55,848 nt of DNA from Gammaproteobacteria bacterium (GTDB lineage: Bacteria; Pseudomonadota; Gammaproteobacteria; Steroidobacterales; PWYM01): NCBI GenBank assembly GCA_003567475.1, contig PWZL01000091.1, forward strand, positions 1 to 55,848, in the 5' to 3' direction. The translations under genes and the position numbers were made by a program. The number at the start of each line of letters is the position of its first letter. The stretch's first letter is position 1. Below, piece after piece: positions 16,102-28,670 of this stretch. Under the pieces are notes generated by a model. That model was given only the letters and a program-made list of their open reading frames with translations, had not been told where the DNA came from and did not search any database.

Positions 16102-16953
16102 ATGTCCCAGGCACTGGAACTGCTCAACGAGGCACGCTGCTTCGGCGGCTGGCAGCGCACCTATCGTCATCGCTCCACGCGCTGCAACGCCGCCATGCAG
16201 TTCGCCGTCTACCTGCCACCAGCCGCCGATCACGCGCGCGTGCCGGCACTTTACTGGCTGTCGGGCCTGACCTGTACCGAAGAGAATTTCAGCGTCAAGG
16301 CCGGCGCGCAGCGCTACGCCGCGGAGCTGGGCATCGCTCTGGTGATCCCCGACACCTCACCGCGTGGGCTGGGGCTGGCCGGGGAAGATGACGACTGGGA
16401 TTTCGGCAGCGGGGCCGGCTTCTACCTGACCGCCACCGAAGCCCCCTGGGCCGACCACTACGACATGTACGGCTACGTGATGGAGGAACTGCCCGCCATC
16501 GCCGAGGCCACATTGCCGCTGCTGCCCGGCGTGCGCTCAATCAGCGGGCATTCGATGGGCGGGCACGGGGCGCTCACCATCGGTCTGAAACACCCCGAGC
16601 TCTACCGCTCGATCTCGGCGTTTGCACCGATCTGCGCGCCGATGCGCTGTGCGTGGGGTCGCAAGGCGTTCAGTCGCTATCTCGGCGAGGATCACACCCG
16701 CTGGCGGGAGTACGACGCCAGCTGGCTGGCCGAGCACCGGCCCTGCGCGCACACGCTGCTCATCGATCAGGGGACGGCCGACCCGTGGCTCGCCGAGCAA
16801 CTGCTGCCGGAAGAACTCGAGCGGGCCTGCGCGGCCTCGGGTCAGCCGCTGGAGCTGCGCCGGCAGCTCGACTACGAGCACGGCTATTATTTTGTCGCAA
16901 GCTTCATCGGTGAGCATCTGCGTTTCCATCAGGCGGCGCTGACCGGAGGATGA
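16102..16953 (+). CDS. frmB: S-formylglutathione hydrolase
   Basis: Hydrolyses S-formylglutathione to formate and glutathione in formaldehyde detoxification. The 283-residue esterase has the nucleophile in SGHSMGGHG (Ser near 151), the acid in DQGTADPWL and the base in LDYEHGYYF. WLSGLTCTEENFSVKAGAQ is a family hallmark. AAGGAG lies six bases before the ATG. No glutathione-dependent formaldehyde dehydrogenase gene is adjacent. Its last bases overlap the next start as ATGA. Confidence 0.95.
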   Translation: MSQALELLNEARCFGGWQRTYRHRSTRCNAAMQFAVYLPPAADHARVPALYWLSGLTCTEENFSVKAGAQRYAAELGIALVIPDTSPRGLGLAGEDDDWDFGSGAGFYLTATEAPWADHYDMYGYVMEELPAIAEATLPLLPGVRSISGHSMGGHGALTIGLKHPELYRSISAFAPICAPMRCAWGRKAFSRYLGEDHTRWREYDASWLAEHRPCAHTLLIDQGTADPWLAEQLLPEELERACAASGQPLELRRQLDYEHGYYFVASFIGEHLRFHQAALTGG

Positions 16954-18479
16954 AGGTCGCCGTCGCGGCCAGCTCCCAGCTGGCAGCCGATGCCGGGGCT
17001 GCCGTCGCCGAGGCCGGCGGCAACGCGGTCGACGCGGCGCTCGCCGCCGCGCTGGTCTCCGCCAACACCGAACCGGGCGTTTGCGCGTTGGCCGGCGGCG
17101 GCTATGTCACCGTCTGGCCCCCCGGCCAGCCGCCCGAAACCCTCGATGGACAGGTCCGCATGCCGGGAGCGGGGCTGGCGCCGGAGCGTCTTGGCGACGG
17201 CGCGGTCGCGGTCGACATGGCTTACGGTGGCGGCGTCACCACGCTGGTCGACGCGGGCAGCGTAGGCGTCCCCGCCGCGCTGGCGGCACTCGAAACCGCC
17301 TGGCAGCGCCACGGCCGGATCGCCTGGCGCCAGCTGTTCGAGCCGGTGATCCACGTGACCCGCCGCGGCTTTCCGCTGCCTGTGGCCTGTCACCACTATC
17401 TGGGTTACTCGGCGGGGCCCGTGTTCTCGCGCAGCACCGAAGGTCACACGGCGCTGCATGACGACACCGGACACCTGCGGCCCCCGGGCAGCGCCATCGT
17501 CGTGCCGGGCCTGGCCGACAGTCTCGCCCTGATCGCCAGCGCGGGTGCCGAGGCGTTCTACCGCGGGCCACTGGCCGAGGCCATGGTCGCGCATGTGCAG
17601 GCCCGTGGCGGCATGCTCACCGGCGACGATCTCGCGGGCTGTCAGGCGATCGTCCGTCCGGCGCTGACGCTGCGTGTTGGCGACTGGCAGATCGCCACCA
17701 ACCCCCCGCCGGCGGTCGGTGGCGCGATCCTGGCCGCCATGCTGCTCGCCGCCGGCTGGCCACTGCCGGCCGGCGCTGGCGCCGGGGTCACCGCCCGTCT
17801 GGCCGCGATCCAGCAGTGTGCTCTGGACTTCCGCCGCACCCGCCTGGACGGCGCCGAGGACCCGATCCCGGCAATCACCGAACTGCTGGCCGGTGTCGCG
17901 CAGCATGGCGACGCCGCGCTGGCCTCACCCTCGACCATCCACGTCTCCGCCACCGACAGCGAGGGCCTGTGCTGCGCGGTTACCCTCTCGGCAGGCTATG
18001 GCTCGGGGCTGATCCCCCCCGGTACGGGTCTCTGGCTCAACAACTGCCTTGGCGAACTCGAGCTCAACCACCGCGGCCTGGTCTTCGGCCCGCCCGGCAC
18101 ACCCGTACCGTCGAATATGGCCCCGACCTGCGCGCGGCATGCCGGCGATGACGCCGCGCTGGCCATCGGCTCGCCCGGGGCCGACCGCATCACCACCGCC
18201 ATGTTCCAGGTGCTGCTGCGTTTCCTCGGCGATGGGCTGTCGCTGGCCGAGGCCATCGCCGCGCCAAGACTGCACCTGGAGTACCGCACCGAGCGCTGGC
18301 AGGCCGCGGTCGAACCGGGACTCGAGACTGACGGGCTTGACCTGCCGGTCCGGGCGTTCGACGTGCTATCGATGTTCTTCGGCGGCGTGGGCGCCACCCT
18401 GCGCGGGCCCGACGGTCATCTGGTGGCGGCCGCCGACCCCAGACGGGCTGGCGGGACCCGAGTCACTGCCCAGCGATGA
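16950..18479 (+). CDS. Gamma-glutamyltransferase-family Ntn-hydrolase, cytoplasmic form
   Basis: Belongs to the GGT superfamily, which self-cleaves to expose a catalytic threonine and acts on gamma-glutamyl bonds such as that of glutathione. At 509 residues it lacks the usual signal peptide: the mature-like text AVAEAGGNAVDAALAAALV begins near residue 18. The predicted nucleophile is the Thr in SPSTIHVSATD (about 329), and VPSNMAPT matches the oxyanion PLSSMTPT region of GGT. The conserved second Thr of true GGTs (TTH) is Ile here, so substrate may differ. It overlaps frmB by four bases, hinting at joint glutathione-conjugate metabolism. Confidence 0.85.
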   Translation: MKVAVAASSQLAADAGAAVAEAGGNAVDAALAAALVSANTEPGVCALAGGGYVTVWPPGQPPETLDGQVRMPGAGLAPERLGDGAVAVDMAYGGGVTTLVDAGSVGVPAALAALETAWQRHGRIAWRQLFEPVIHVTRRGFPLPVACHHYLGYSAGPVFSRSTEGHTALHDDTGHLRPPGSAIVVPGLADSLALIASAGAEAFYRGPLAEAMVAHVQARGGMLTGDDLAGCQAIVRPALTLRVGDWQIATNPPPAVGGAILAAMLLAAGWPLPAGAGAGVTARLAAIQQCALDFRRTRLDGAEDPIPAITELLAGVAQHGDAALASPSTIHVSATDSEGLCCAVTLSAGYGSGLIPPGTGLWLNNCLGELELNHRGLVFGPPGTPVPSNMAPTCARHAGDDAALAIGSPGADRITTAMFQVLLRFLGDGLSLAEAIAAPRLHLEYRTERWQAAVEPGLETDGLDLPVRAFDVLSMFFGGVGATLRGPDGHLVAAADPRRAGGTRVTAQR

Positions 18480-23174: not shown

Positions 23175-24365
23175 ATGAGCAACGACAACGCCCCCCTCAA
23201 CACCTCACGCCGCGCCCTGCTCGCCGGCGCCGGCGCCGCCGGCGTGGCCGGGGTACTGGGTCCCACCGCAGCCGCCGGCCAGGCTCGCGCAGCGGAGGCC
23301 CATGAACGCATCTCGGTGGCGCGCAACGGGCGTTACGACACCGTCGAACTGCGCCAGCAGGCGATCAATGTCACTGCCATCCAGTCGCGGGTGCGCTCAG
23401 TAGATCTGAACAACCTGCGCCGTACCAACCGGGAGAATCTCGCGCATGTGCTCAAGCTGATCGACCAGGCACAGGGCTCACCCGAGGAGTGGGGTGGCGA
23501 GCGGCTGTGGGGCGCCAAGCAGGATTTGCTGTGCATGCACGAGTTCCCGATCCAGGGCTGGCAGCCCTGGGGGCGCACCGAACTCCAGCGCGTGGCCTAT
23601 GAGCTGCCGGGACCGGAGTCCGAGGCCATCGGCGAGCGCGCCCGACGCTATGGCTGCTACATTTCCTGGGGGGCCTATGTCCGGGATCCCGACTGGCCGG
23701 GGCATATCCTCAACCTGTCGATTCTGACCGGCCCGGACGGCAGCATCGTCGCCAAGCAGTGGAAGGGCCGGAATGCGCTGGGGCTGTTCGGCAACTTCGC
23801 CCTGATCGGGACGACGGTCTACGATGTGCTCGACCGCTTCGTCGAGATGTATGGCTGGGACGAGGTGCTGCCGGTGGCCCGCACTGACATCGGGAACATC
23901 GCCTTGACGGCGGTCGGCCTCGAGCCGCTGCTCTACCAGTGCCTGGCGTTGAAGGGCACGGAACTCCTGGTGATGACGGTGACGGGCGGCTCGAACGCAC
24001 AGTCGGCCATTGCCACCGCCCGTGCCAACCGGATCTACACCGTCGGCGTGGGCAATTCGGTCACCCAGGACAATATCGGATTCCCCGAGGCCACCGGTGT
24101 CCGCGGCGACGGCTCGGTGATTGTCGACCCGACCGGTCGGACGCTGGCACAGACCGCCAATCACCACGAAGACTTCGCCAGCACCCGCATCCCCATCGCG
24201 GACTTCCGCGAGACCCGGCGTTTCCCCGAGATCCCGGCGGCGATCCTGCTGCCTGTGCTCCAGCAGTACGAACCGACCTTCAAGCCCAACGGTTTCATGG
24301 ACCGCCTGCCGGAAACCTATCGCGACGCGGCGGAGCTGGTGCGCGAGCGAATGTCCGAAGGCTGA
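23175..24365 (+). CDS. Tat-exported nitrilase/amidase-fold protein lacking the catalytic cysteine
   Basis: The 396-residue protein has a twin-arginine signal (SRRALLAGAGAAGVAGVLG, residues 11-29) and a carbon-nitrogen hydrolase domain most like aliphatic amidase. The family Glu is at 123 (MHEFPIQGW) and the Lys at 194 (IVAKQWKGRN). Aligning the segment before LALKGTELLV with the CxDGxxP motif of amidases puts Thr245 (TAVGLEP) in place of the nucleophilic Cys. All other landmarks and the length are intact. So it is either a pseudoenzyme or a new catalytic variant. It is 16 bases upstream of an ATP-grasp ligase gene, so the two are surely co-transcribed. Confidence 0.85.
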   Translation: MSNDNAPLNTSRRALLAGAGAAGVAGVLGPTAAAGQARAAEAHERISVARNGRYDTVELRQQAINVTAIQSRVRSVDLNNLRRTNRENLAHVLKLIDQAQGSPEEWGGERLWGAKQDLLCMHEFPIQGWQPWGRTELQRVAYELPGPESEAIGERARRYGCYISWGAYVRDPDWPGHILNLSILTGPDGSIVAKQWKGRNALGLFGNFALIGTTVYDVLDRFVEMYGWDEVLPVARTDIGNIALTAVGLEPLLYQCLALKGTELLVMTVTGGSNAQSAIATARANRIYTVGVGNSVTQDNIGFPEATGVRGDGSVIVDPTGRTLAQTANHHEDFASTRIPIADFRETRRFPEIPAAILLPVLQQYEPTFKPNGFMDRLPETYRDAAELVRERMSEG

Positions 24366-24381
24366 GCACGGGAGCGCGCAG

Positions 24382-25932
24382 ATGGCTGAGGCCAGCCCGG
24401 CACCGGGATCGGCGGAAGAGCGGGCGCGTTTCGTGGCGCTGCAGACGAAGCTTGCCCCGATGTTCCGCGACACCTACGCGAATCCCCTGGCGGAACGTAC
24501 GGTGGTGGTGGTGCCCGGGCTGAGCCTTGACCAGGAGACCCTCGGCCACATCCCTGGCGCGGCGCACTACGAGGAGCGTCAGCTCAGCATGCTGATGCTC
24601 CTGCGCCTGCCGCATACGCGGCTGGTGTTCGTCACCAGCACGCCGGTCGACCCGGCGATCATCGACTACTATCTCAGCCTGCTCTCAGGCGTACCCAGCA
24701 GCCATGCGAAGCGGCGCCTGGTGCTGCTGTCGGCCTATGACGCGGCGCCGCAGTCCCTGAGCTCCAAGATCCTGGCGCGGCCTCGGCTGCTGGACCGCAT
24801 CCGCGAGGCCATTCCCAACCTCGAGAGCGCCCATCTGAGCTGTTTCAATGCCACCGCCGAGGAAGTCACACTGGCCGTGCAGCTCGGTATTCCGCTGTAT
24901 GCCTGCGATCCGGCACTGGCCTGGCTGGGCACCAAGAGCGGCAGCCGCCAAGCGTTCCGGGAAGCCGCAGTGGACCTGCCGGACGGTGCCGAGGGGCTGC
25001 GCGGTGCCGACGAGCTGAGCGAGGCTCTGGCGGCGCTGAAAGCGCGCCGGCCCCGACTGGCCCGCGCAGTGGTCAAGCTCGAAGAAGGCTTTTCCGGCGA
25101 GGGCAACGCGGTATTCGATTTCCGTGAGCTCGACGGCCGCAGCGTCACCGCAGCCTGGATCCGGGAGGCGTTCGCGACCCGGCTCCGGCCGGAAGCCAAT
25201 GGCATGAGTGCCGAACGCTTCCTGGCGAAATTCGGTGAGATGGGCGGGATCGTCGAAGTCTGGCTGGAGGGCCGAGAGAAACGCTCACCCTCGGTACAGA
25301 TGCGGATCACGCCCACCGGTGTGCTCGAGGTGATTTCCACCCATGACCAGCTGCTCGGCGGCAACAGCGGCCAGGTGTTCCTCGGCAGCACCTTCCCGGC
25401 GGACGAGCGCTACCGCTGCTCGCTGCAGCAGGCCGGCCGACGCGTCGGCGAAGTGCTGGCCGGGCATGGCGCGCTCGGACGCTTCAGCGTTGATTTTGTC
25501 ACGGTGCGCGAGGACGAGGGCTGGGCGCACTACGCGATCGAGGTCAATCTGCGCAAAGGCGGCACGACCCTGCCCTTTCAGATGCTGCAGTTCCTCACCG
25601 ACGGGCGCTATGACGCCGAGCGCGGCGAGTTTCACACGCCCACCGGCCAGCGCCGGGTCTACTTCGCCACCGACAATCTGCAGCGCGACGCCTATCGGCA
25701 GCTCACGCCCGAGGATCTCGTCGACCTCATCGTCGAGCATCGGCTGCACTTCGATCCGACCCGACAGCAGGGCGTGGTCTTCAACCTGATCGGCGCGCTC
25801 AGCGAGATTGGCAAGCTGGGCATGGTGAGCATCAGCGACACGCCCGCACATGCCGAGACGCTGTATCGGCGGACGGTCGCGGTGCTCGATCGCGAGGTCG
25901 GCGTCGCCATGCTGCACGGGCGCGCGGACTGA
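24382..25932 (+). CDS. ATP-grasp ligase, PGM1-related (peptide ligase-like)
   Basis: Predicted ATP-dependent carboxylate-amine ligase. The 516-residue cytoplasmic protein has an N-terminal Rossmann-like half (about 1-190), an ATP-grasp core (lysine segments ARAVVKLEEGFSGEGNAVF near 230 and metal/ATP region IEVNLRKGGTTLPFQML near 390) and a C-terminal helical part. It resembles proteins named after PGM1, the pheganomycin peptide ligase. GGGAG is seven bases before the ATG at 24382. There is no precursor-peptide gene that I can see next to it. Substrates are unknown; the neighbour at 23175 is the obvious partner. Confidence 0.82.
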   Translation: MAEASPAPGSAEERARFVALQTKLAPMFRDTYANPLAERTVVVVPGLSLDQETLGHIPGAAHYEERQLSMLMLLRLPHTRLVFVTSTPVDPAIIDYYLSLLSGVPSSHAKRRLVLLSAYDAAPQSLSSKILARPRLLDRIREAIPNLESAHLSCFNATAEEVTLAVQLGIPLYACDPALAWLGTKSGSRQAFREAAVDLPDGAEGLRGADELSEALAALKARRPRLARAVVKLEEGFSGEGNAVFDFRELDGRSVTAAWIREAFATRLRPEANGMSAERFLAKFGEMGGIVEVWLEGREKRSPSVQMRITPTGVLEVISTHDQLLGGNSGQVFLGSTFPADERYRCSLQQAGRRVGEVLAGHGALGRFSVDFVTVREDEGWAHYAIEVNLRKGGTTLPFQMLQFLTDGRYDAERGEFHTPTGQRRVYFATDNLQRDAYRQLTPEDLVDLIVEHRLHFDPTRQQGVVFNLIGALSEIGKLGMVSISDTPAHAETLYRRTVAVLDREVGVAMLHGRAD

Positions 25933-26034: not shown

Positions 26035-27798
26035 ATGCAACCCAGTTTTTCCCTTGCCCTGACCGGTAGCGGTGGCGCCGGCGTCATGACCGCCGGCCAG
26101 CTGCTGCTCGATGCCGCAGCCCTCGCCGGACGCTACGGCCTGATGGCGCGCAGCTTCGGCCCGCAGATCCGGGGCGGTGAGGCCGCCGCCCTGCTCCGCC
26201 TGGCCAATCGGCCGGTGGAGTCCCCGGACGACGCCTATGATCTGCTCGTCGCCCTGGACTGGGGCAACATCGAGCGTTTCGCCGACGAACTGCCGCTGGC
26301 GCACGGCGCCATGGTCGTGGCCGACCCCGGGCAGGGGGAGATCCCGGCCGTGATCGCCGCACAGACCCGCCGGATCATCCAGGTGCCGATGACCGCCCTT
26401 GCCCGTGACATCCCCGGCGGTCGGCCCAACATGGTCGCGCTCGGTCTGACCGCGAGCCTGGCCGGTCTGCCGGACGCCGCCATGGAGACGCGGGTCCGCC
26501 AGGTGCTGGCCCGCCACGGTACGGACAGCGTCACCGCCGCGATGGCCTGCCTCGCAGCCGGCCGAGCGGCCGCCGCGGATTGCGCCCGCGACGGGCTGCC
26601 AGCGTTCGGGGACGCCTCCCCGCCTGGCGTCGCTGCGCACCTCGATCGCTGGGTCCTGAACGGCAATGAAGCCACCGGCTTCGGCGCACTCGCGGCCGGT
26701 GTGCGGTTCTGTGCGGCGTATCCGATCACGCCCGCAACGGAAATCCTCGAGTGGCTGGCTGGCCGTCTGCCACGGGTCGGTGGTCGGCTGGTCCAGGCCG
26801 AAGACGAACTGGCGTCTATCGGCATGTGTATCGGGGCCGCCTACGGTGGGGTCCCGGCCCTCACCGCCACGGCTGGACCGGGGTTGTCGCTGATGATCGA
26901 GAGCCTCGGCCTGGCGGTCGCCGCGGAGATTCCGCTGGTGGTCGCGAACGTGATGCGCGGCGGTCCGTCTACCGGCATCCCGACCAAGTCGGAACAGACC
27001 GATCTCAACATCGCGGTCTATGGCCTGCATGGCGAGGCACCCCATGTGGTGGTGGCACCGATCGGGATCGCCGACTGTGCCCCGACTTCAGCCTGGGCGG
27101 TGACGCTGGCCGAGGCCCTGCAGACCCCGGTGATTCTCCTGTCAGATCAGGCCCTGGGCCAGACGCGCACCATCGCGGATCCACCCGCCGCCGCGTTGCC
27201 CGCCGCCGCGCGCCGCTGGCATTCACCCGGGGCGGCCGATGCGCCGGGCGTCTACCAGCGCTACGCGCGTACCGCTGACGGGGTGTCACCCATGAGTTGC
27301 CCGGGCATGCCGGGCGGGCAGTACACGGCCGATGGACTCACCCATACCGACGCCGGCATCCCTTCGACGCGTGCGGAGGATCATGTCGGTCAGCTCGACA
27401 AGCGTCGCCGCAAACTCGAGCACCACGACTACGGCGGGCGCTGGGGCGAGGTCAGCGGAACGGGCGAGCTTGCCGTCATCACCTGGGGCTCTGCCTCACC
27501 CCCTGTGCGTGAAGCCTGCGAGCGCGCGGCGGCGGCGGGACTGCAGGTGCGACTCATCGCCCTGCGCCTGCTCTCGCCCCTGCCGGTCGTCCAGCTCGAG
27601 GCGGCGCTGGCCGGTGTCCAGGCCTGTGTGGTGGTGGAACACAACCACTCCGGCCAGCTCTACCGTCATCTGCGAGCCTGGGTCGAGTTGCCACGCCCGA
27701 CGCTGGCCTGGCACCGCCCGGGACCGCTGCCGCTGCGACCGGGTGAGATTCTTGACGCCCTGCACCACCTGCAGCGTCAACTGGAGGTGGCAGCGTGA
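26035..27798 (+). CDS. korA: 2-oxoacid:acceptor oxidoreductase, fused gamma-alpha subunit (KorA type)
   Basis: Large subunit of a CoA-dependent 2-oxoacid (probably 2-oxoglutarate) ferredoxin oxidoreductase. In the 587 residues, the gamma domain comes first (LTGSGGAGVMTAGQLLLDAA, residues 8-27), followed from about residue 205 by the pyrimidine-binding alpha domain (GNEATGFGALAAGVRFCAAYPITPATEI), with THxD-like and transketolase-C parts at the end (VVVEHNHSGQLYRHLR). The order gamma-alpha is standard for two-subunit KorAB. It overlaps korB by four bases. No ferredoxin gene is adjacent. Confidence 0.93.
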   Translation: MQPSFSLALTGSGGAGVMTAGQLLLDAAALAGRYGLMARSFGPQIRGGEAAALLRLANRPVESPDDAYDLLVALDWGNIERFADELPLAHGAMVVADPGQGEIPAVIAAQTRRIIQVPMTALARDIPGGRPNMVALGLTASLAGLPDAAMETRVRQVLARHGTDSVTAAMACLAAGRAAAADCARDGLPAFGDASPPGVAAHLDRWVLNGNEATGFGALAAGVRFCAAYPITPATEILEWLAGRLPRVGGRLVQAEDELASIGMCIGAAYGGVPALTATAGPGLSLMIESLGLAVAAEIPLVVANVMRGGPSTGIPTKSEQTDLNIAVYGLHGEAPHVVVAPIGIADCAPTSAWAVTLAEALQTPVILLSDQALGQTRTIADPPAAALPAAARRWHSPGAADAPGVYQRYARTADGVSPMSCPGMPGGQYTADGLTHTDAGIPSTRAEDHVGQLDKRRRKLEHHDYGGRWGEVSGTGELAVITWGSASPPVREACERAAAAGLQVRLIALRLLSPLPVVQLEAALAGVQACVVVEHNHSGQLYRHLRAWVELPRPTLAWHRPGPLPLRPGEILDALHHLQRQLEVAA

Positions 27799-28670
27799 AC
27801 ACGGCGGTCGTTATCAGACCGAAGGACTACAAGTCGGCAACCAAGCCCGTCTGGTGTCCGGGCTGTGGCGATTTCGGCGTCCTCAACGCGCTGACCAAGA
27901 CCCTGGCCGGACTTGCGCTGGCGCCGGCGCAGGTCGCCGTGGTCTCGGGCATCGGCTGCTCGTCCCGGCTGCCCGCCTATACCAGCGTCTATGGTTTCCA
28001 CGGAGTGCATGGCCGCGCGCTGCCCGTCGCCACCGGGCTTGCCGTGGCGCGCCCCGACCTGACGGTGATCGCCACCGGCGGTGACGGCGACGGCTTCTCG
28101 ATCGGCGGCAACCACTTTCTGCACGCGTGCCGGCGCAACGTCAACCTGACCTACCTGGTCATGGACAATGCGGTCTATGGCATGACCAAGGGTCAGGCCT
28201 CGCCGACCAGTGCGGCTGACTGGGCCGGCAGCAAACTCACGCCGGACGGCACGGGGATCGCGGCGTTCCGGCCACTGGAGATCGCCCTCTCCGCCGGCGC
28301 GGGCTTCATAGCCCGCGGGTTCTCCGGCGACCCGAATGCTCTGGCGGGACTGCTGGCCGAGGCGATCGAGTACCCGGGATTCGCCTTCCTGCAGGTGCTG
28401 AGTCCCTGCATCACCTACCGGCCGGAACAGATGGAATACAAGGCGCTGGTCGCTGCGGGGTTCGAACCGCTGGCCGACCGCAACGCGGCCTTCCGCCGGC
28501 TGCTCACCGACGACGGGTTCACGACCGGGCTGCTGTACCGCGCGCCGGTCGCTGCCGGCGGATCAGCCCTGGCGACCGCGGCCACACCGGATGACACCGC
28601 CAGCCTCGCCGGCATTGCCCGCGAGTTCACTGCAGCGCGGCTGCATGCGGCCAACGAGCATGAGTCCTGA
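27795..28670 (+). CDS. korB: 2-oxoacid:acceptor oxidoreductase beta subunit (KorB type)
   Basis: Thiamine-diphosphate and 4Fe-4S subunit. The 291-residue protein has cysteines in WCPGCGDFG (near residue 21-24), GIGCSS (near 55) and VLSPCITY (near 198), which ligate the cluster in two-subunit enzymes. The TPP motif runs from GDGDGFSIGGNHFLH to the Asn in MDNAVYGMTKGQ. The start is a GTG overlapping the korA stop. These enzymes are oxygen-sensitive and reduce ferredoxin or flavodoxin. Confidence 0.93.
   Translation: MNTAVVIRPKDYKSATKPVWCPGCGDFGVLNALTKTLAGLALAPAQVAVVSGIGCSSRLPAYTSVYGFHGVHGRALPVATGLAVARPDLTVIATGGDGDGFSIGGNHFLHACRRNVNLTYLVMDNAVYGMTKGQASPTSAADWAGSKLTPDGTGIAAFRPLEIALSAGAGFIARGFSGDPNALAGLLAEAIEYPGFAFLQVLSPCITYRPEQMEYKALVAAGFEPLADRNAAFRRLLTDDGFTTGLLYRAPVAAGGSALATAATPDDTASLAGIAREFTAARLHAANEHES

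Follow-up and report, generated by a model that had tools for sequence, protein, structure and literature searches.

Textbooks define the nitrilase superfamily by its cysteine nucleophile. The described enzymes closest to the 396-residue, probably exported protein studied here are the aliphatic amidase AmiE (2uxy, 2plq) and the formamidase AmiF (2dyu, 5g3o), with which it shares the nitrilase fold, spanning residues 59-395 (Z 28.4-30.4), the Glu and Lys of the catalytic triad, the overall length and a C-terminal extension. However, identity to these enzymes is only 17-18% and, unlike them, the protein contains no Cys nucleophile, is two residues shorter after that position, carries an extra insertion between Lys197 and residue 216 as well as a Tat-type signal, and displays the branch-specific motifs HEFP, WKxRN and EMYG. 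Proteins that NCBI names 'nitrilase-related carbon-nitrogen hydrolase' (for example Haladaptatus WP_227379662.1 and Tsukamurella WP_068525714.1) are distant relatives, with 26-33% identity; in contrast to this branch they have the canonical loop length, and they form separate lineages. In a literature search that reached few subscription journals, no paper linked the term 'pseudoenzyme' to 'nitrilase superfamily', and Cys-less bacterial members did not come up. The 516-residue product of the adjacent gene resembles PGM1-type ATP-grasp ligases, having the same PGM1_C and IQCH ATP-grasp domains, and its sole solved relative is BesA (8yi6, L-propargylglycine--L-glutamate ligase; residues 47-502, E 7.5e-42), with which it has the E-x-N-L-R-K active-site motif in common.

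In the window (the whole 55,848-nucleotide stretch of contig PWZL01000091.1 that was analysed), the 396-residue protein scores 44.1 bits against PF00795 (CN_hydrolase; cut-off 23.2) and thus belongs to the nitrilase superfamily by profile. The structure predicted by AlphaFold2 with 50 sequences (mean pLDDT 84.7) has a clear nitrilase fold of the alpha-beta-beta-alpha type, and its best structural match is aliphatic amidase 2uxy (Foldseek E 3.6e-17; Z 30.4, rmsd 2.8 and 277 residues in VIA-align), the kind of enzyme named for superposition in the initial annotation. The N-terminus, a twin-Arg NTSRRALLAGAGAAGVAGVLG...ARA stretch, resembles a Tat signal; TIGR01409 scores 14.9 bits, under its cut-off of 16.7, and residues 1-42 of the predicted structure have low pLDDT. 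Under a strict rule, at least 61 of 79 homologues have RR ahead of a hydrophobic stretch, several of the missed ones being clear by eye, and some paralogues (L002, L031 and L033) are without a signal peptide. Judged from its N-terminal sequence, the protein is predicted to be exported via Tat. The twin-Arg N-terminus, the fold and the alignments together uphold the earlier description of a Tat-signal, amidase-fold protein without a Cys nucleophile, with export as a prediction.

A purine-rich stretch precedes the start of each of the two genes (Table 1), and PADLOC, which covers anti-phage defence, gave no match for either product. Sequencing error or pseudogene status was rejected as the origin of the Cys-less gene: independent MAGs share its residues, and dN/dS is about 0.05.

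Table 1. Positions of the two genes, of the pocket codons and of the related Ser/Arg-family copies (coordinates refer to the window unless another locus is named).
Feature	Position	Strand	Evidence
Amidase-fold CDS, 396 aa, CN_hydrolase without catalytic Cys, Tat-type signal	23175..24365	+	ORF, profile, fold
Predicted twin-arginine signal peptide, residues ~1-40 (NTSRRALLAG...)	23175..23294	+	sequence; cleavage ARA/AE possible, by eye
Glu123 codon, general-base position of triad, kept	23541..23543	+	alignments
Lys197 codon, catalytic Lys position of triad, kept	23763..23765	+	alignments
Asp220 codon, column of Glu in canonical 'FYEK', candidate second acid of C-E-E-K tetrad	23832..23834	+	alignment
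Thr245 codon, position named in the initial annotation, two residues before probable nucleophile column	23907..23909	+	alignments
Val247 codon, probable structural equivalent of nucleophilic Cys, followed by two-residue deletion relative to canonical enzymes	23913..23915	+	alignments
PGM1/BesA-like ATP-grasp ligase CDS, 516 aa, EVNLRK active-site motif	24382..25932	+	ORF, profiles
Ser/Arg-family copy of window genome, L004, one copy	G000:C57:34167-35267	-	alignments
Ser/Arg-family copies in common clusters	L088:9008-10048; L089:8135-9169; L110:12412-13137		

Glu123 had been correctly named as the triad Glu: it aligns with the canonical Glu in 27 of 27 canonical sequences. Lys197, the last K of the canonical 'YRK', aligns with the canonical Lys in the same 27 of 27. 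The triad Lys had been placed at residue 194, which is certainly wrong; that position varies, with K in only 47 members of an 81-sequence set, whereas Lys197 is invariant (81/81) and aligned with the canonical Lys. Glu123 is kept in 80/80 of this set, which derives from a search of genome contigs (best 80 of 239 relatives) with patterns including HEFP and EMYG, so that the conservation of residues in these two motifs is inflated. Homologues from a whole-protein search, made without any Glu- or motif-containing pattern, also keep Glu123 and Lys197, with the exception of L003. The nitrilase superfamily has a C-E-E-K tetrad (PMC6946656), for whose second acid Asp220 is a candidate; Glu224, four residues further on, is invariant, the alignment being uncertain at this stretch. 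His122, Trp174, His177, Trp196, Asn200 and Asn241 are invariant in the branch and are not found in canonical enzymes.

L003 (G000:C15), L133 and L134 are Tat-signal paralogues from the same genus with Ala, Gln and Val at the triad positions, and each is possibly a full pseudoenzyme. Glu and Lys are missing in no other lineage, and in this one Glu, Lys and Cys were lost all together. Thus, the Glu-Lys pair is not retained by the fold alone.

None of the alignments made places a Cys at the nucleophile position of the 396-residue protein, which falls on Val247 or, in another register, on Thr245. Between G240 and P251 the protein lacks two residues that canonical enzymes have, so the assignment of the Cys column hinges on gap placement. 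When the family is aligned with 17 intermediates and with 27 canonical Cys enzymes of the same order, every canonical Cys stands at column 247, and the strand register is plain when the intermediates TELGNIAMMPCGEIMYPE (L142) and RTEIGNLAMIASEEILYPE (L150) are set against the window's RTDIGNIALTAVG--LEP. With hhalign, the gap falls after residue 247/248 against both the sister family and a carbamoylputrescine-amidase-like group. A plasmid formamidase points to column 247 when added to the multiple alignment but to 245 when compared directly, and single-sequence profile alignments are split on the register. On these alignments, Val247 is probably the equivalent of the Cys, and Thr245 a possible one if the strand has slipped. 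The initial annotation, which had put Thr245 at the Cys column, was right that no Cys stands there; most alignments favour Val247 over its choice of residue, and the direct formamidase comparison agrees with it, as does the gap-free motif that it used. As for its proposal to check whether Thr is fixed at the site, column 245 is Thr or Ser in 79/81 family sequences (versus 1/27 canonical and 0/17 sister sequences); at column 247 the counts are V 61, T 8, C 6, A 2, S 2 and I 2, with Cys limited to six sequences.

The Cys substitution is real, old and odd. Both the 81-sequence set and a tree show it to be a property of the whole family and not of this genome alone. In that tree, a quick one with long-branch warnings from which the nucleophile columns and those of Glu123 and Lys197 were left out, the family and its nearest degenerate relatives form a clade of 52 rows (SH-aLRT 99). 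Within the genus, dN/dS is 0.045-0.062, indicating purifying selection. The absence of Cys is therefore more than chance, being common to a supported clade whose genes are under purifying selection. Within the clade, Cys occurs at column 247 only in one nested group from a single genus (SPCKMEPE), and for this reason looks regained. Members of that group (L095, L101, L106 and L116) retain the two-residue deletion with Cys back at 247, and from their sequences they are possibly regained thiol enzymes. Two genes annotated 'nitrilase-related carbon-nitrogen hydrolase' (L184:2989-4095 from Haladaptatus and L185:4001-5092 from Tsukamurella) have Ala at column 247; thus, Cys loss seems to have occurred in further lineages.

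According to the record titles of the best 80 of 239 relatives, where MAG titles can be wrong, the family is found in Gammaproteobacteria (many Steroidobacteraceae, Nevskiaceae and Lysobacterales MAGs and one isolate, Peristeroidobacter agariperforans), Alphaproteobacteria (Rhodospirillaceae, Hyphomonadaceae, Parvularcula, Oceanicaulis and Marinicaulis), Acidobacteriota (Blastocatellia, Pyrinomonadaceae) and one cyanobacterial MAG (Symploca). Of 147 genomes from the order, 52 match its profile at E < 1e-60, often with several paralogues. Its distribution is patchy, since among 398 genomes sampled from the phylum only one besides the window's own matches strongly. No usable canonical relatives were found in viral contigs. 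The window genome encodes seven CN_hydrolase genes, four of them degenerate copies without the Cys, and the automatic name 'carbon-nitrogen hydrolase' is misleading for many such genes.

The ATP-grasp gene downstream had been described as PGM1-like and 16 bases away, and it is real on both counts: its ATG at 24382 lies 16 bases past the stop of the exported gene on the same strand, and its product scores 87.2 bits against ATP-grasp_IQCH (cut-off 27) and 44.4 bits against PGM1_C (cut-off 22.5). The ligase is not BesA itself, because its score against the NF042917 equivalog, 168.6 bits, is far below the cut-off of 750. A gamma-glutamyltransferase-like ORF, recognized by eye, occupies positions 16950-18479 of the window, with ~6 kb between it and the BesA-like ligase downstream; genes for the alpha and beta subunits of a 2-oxoacid:acceptor oxidoreductase follow the ligase (26035-28670), and the alpha gene comes after the ligase in L041 and L042 too. 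Among the 147 genomes of the order, seven contain the ligase and nine a close orthologue (>60% identity) of the exported gene. Four genomes, all from the window's genus, contain both, and the genes are adjacent in three of these congeneric MAGs. In the fourth (G001) the two are split between contigs and have unrelated neighbours, with a serpin-like ORF beside the exported gene and a thioredoxin-like ORF beside the ligase, both read by eye from translations. Outside the genus, five of the 147 genomes have one gene, three have the other and none has both. At the 80 loci fetched (the best 80 of 239), the ligase is near the exported gene only in two sister MAGs, and adjacency of the pair was not found across genera, being confined to three MAGs within a single genus. 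At the two distant ligase loci with the best coverage, the neighbours are glycogen synthase and other ATP-grasp genes.

A sister family, which its profile match likewise assigns to CN_hydrolase, keeps the Glu but has Arg in place of Lys and Ser in place of Cys (IASEEILYPE). This Ser/Arg family and the window family occur together in 45 of the 147 genomes, the window family alone in 7, the Ser/Arg family alone in 6 and neither in 89 (Fisher p 1e-23 for co-occurrence, a value that ignores kinship, the co-occurrence being partly due to common ancestry). The two also co-vary inside taxonomic families; in f10, for example, G072, G090 and G137 have both and G013 and G026 neither. They lie a few kilobases apart in three gene clusters (L088, L089 and L110), and the Ser/Arg-family copy of L110 has a Tat-like signal. 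The L088 cluster also holds MmgE/PrpD, amidohydrolase, MFS, SnoaL, aldehyde dehydrogenase and DUF3598 genes, a content that suggests a small-molecule catabolic setting for clusters of this type, although other lineages have different neighbours. If the exported protein has any functional partner, the Ser/Arg family is a more likely and better candidate than the ATP-grasp ligase.

The reading preferred here, to which we assign a probability of about 0.5, is that a Tat-exported nitrilase branch lost its thiol and retained the rest of its pocket, where a small amide- or acid-like ligand would be handled without a Cys-thioester. The branch no longer has the thiol nucleophile, nor two residues of the following loop, but it retains Glu123 and Lys197, together with an acid at 220/224 and the branch-specific residues; in the periplasm, the pocket may still bind or convert its small molecule in a way that would dispense with the thioester. 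The pocket is judged to work on a ligand still because the one lineage freed of the constraint lost Glu and Lys too; residue conservation can also be structural, reflecting an oligomer interface or a scaffold. A non-catalytic subunit, a pseudoenzyme binding a ligand or joining a member of the Ser/Arg family (or some other nitrilase) in a heteromer, is unlikely. Nitrilases oligomerise, and such a role is consistent with the strong co-occurrence of the two families, their three common clusters and the four degenerate copies in the window genome. However, L004, the Ser/Arg copy of that genome, is without sign of export in the alignments, so that the two proteins may occupy different compartments, and the strictness with which Glu and Lys are conserved exceeds the needs of a scaffold. 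It is rather improbable that the Thr/Ser245 hydroxyl serves as the nucleophile, the two-residue deletion having slid the strand to create a Ser/Thr amidase or esterase on the nitrilase fold. Alignments with the intermediates set 247 and not 245 on the Cys, the returning Cys sits at 247, near Ser245, and Cys-to-Ser changes inactivate several nitrilase superfamily members; the idea draws on the near-constancy of Thr or Ser at 245, on the direct formamidase alignment, on the retained Glu and Lys and on the fact that strand residues i and i-2 face the same side.

The initial annotation had offered another explanation, in which an amide or peptide made by the ATP-grasp ligase would be bound or processed by the exported protein. 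It fails the test of gene-pair conservation that its own proposal contained (4/147 genomes with both genes, three with them adjacent, one genus) and, since the pair is not conserved, it has no comparative support. The 16-base spacing, the same order in three MAGs and the relationship to BesA, which joins L-propargylglycine to L-glutamate, count in its favour, but the pair is broken inside the genus and absent together outside it, many genomes have the exported family without the ligase, and relatives of the ligase stand in unrelated surroundings. Such a pathway is very improbable and no longer a reason for interest in the locus; the ligase is probably a local neighbour in one small species group and neither part of the ancestral function nor a functional partner; a lineage-specific recruitment in three species is conceivable. 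An ordinary Cys hydrolase using a displaced pocket Cys, C161 or C256, is barely plausible: C161 is invariant in A1 and A2, but it begins the core strand E162-170, distant in sequence from the nucleophile turn, and C256 is Ala in 36/81 sequences. Returning to the preferred reading of a retained pocket, a Cys-less and mostly (by prediction) exported branch that keeps Glu and Lys under purifying selection offers a natural test of thiol-free chemistry on the nitrilase fold. A thiol-free nitrilase branch might employ the Thr/Ser245 hydroxyl, or Glu and Lys with His122/Asn200/Asn241 in a different reaction, and might form a periplasmic/cytoplasmic module with the second Cys-less family, a proposal that we consider doubtful.

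The neighbourhoods of the exported gene have no substrate theme in common across lineages. In the freshwater Steroidobacteraceae-like group, TonB receptor, MaoC, D-2-hydroxyacid dehydrogenase and RND genes are found near it; in other lineages the neighbour families are mixed, with CpeT and alpha/beta hydrolases seen at most three times in 115 neighbours. At L051, L052, L084 and ~15 further loci, the gene lies between a TonB receptor gene and MaoC/D-2-hydroxyacid dehydrogenase/HlyD/RND genes, in constant order.
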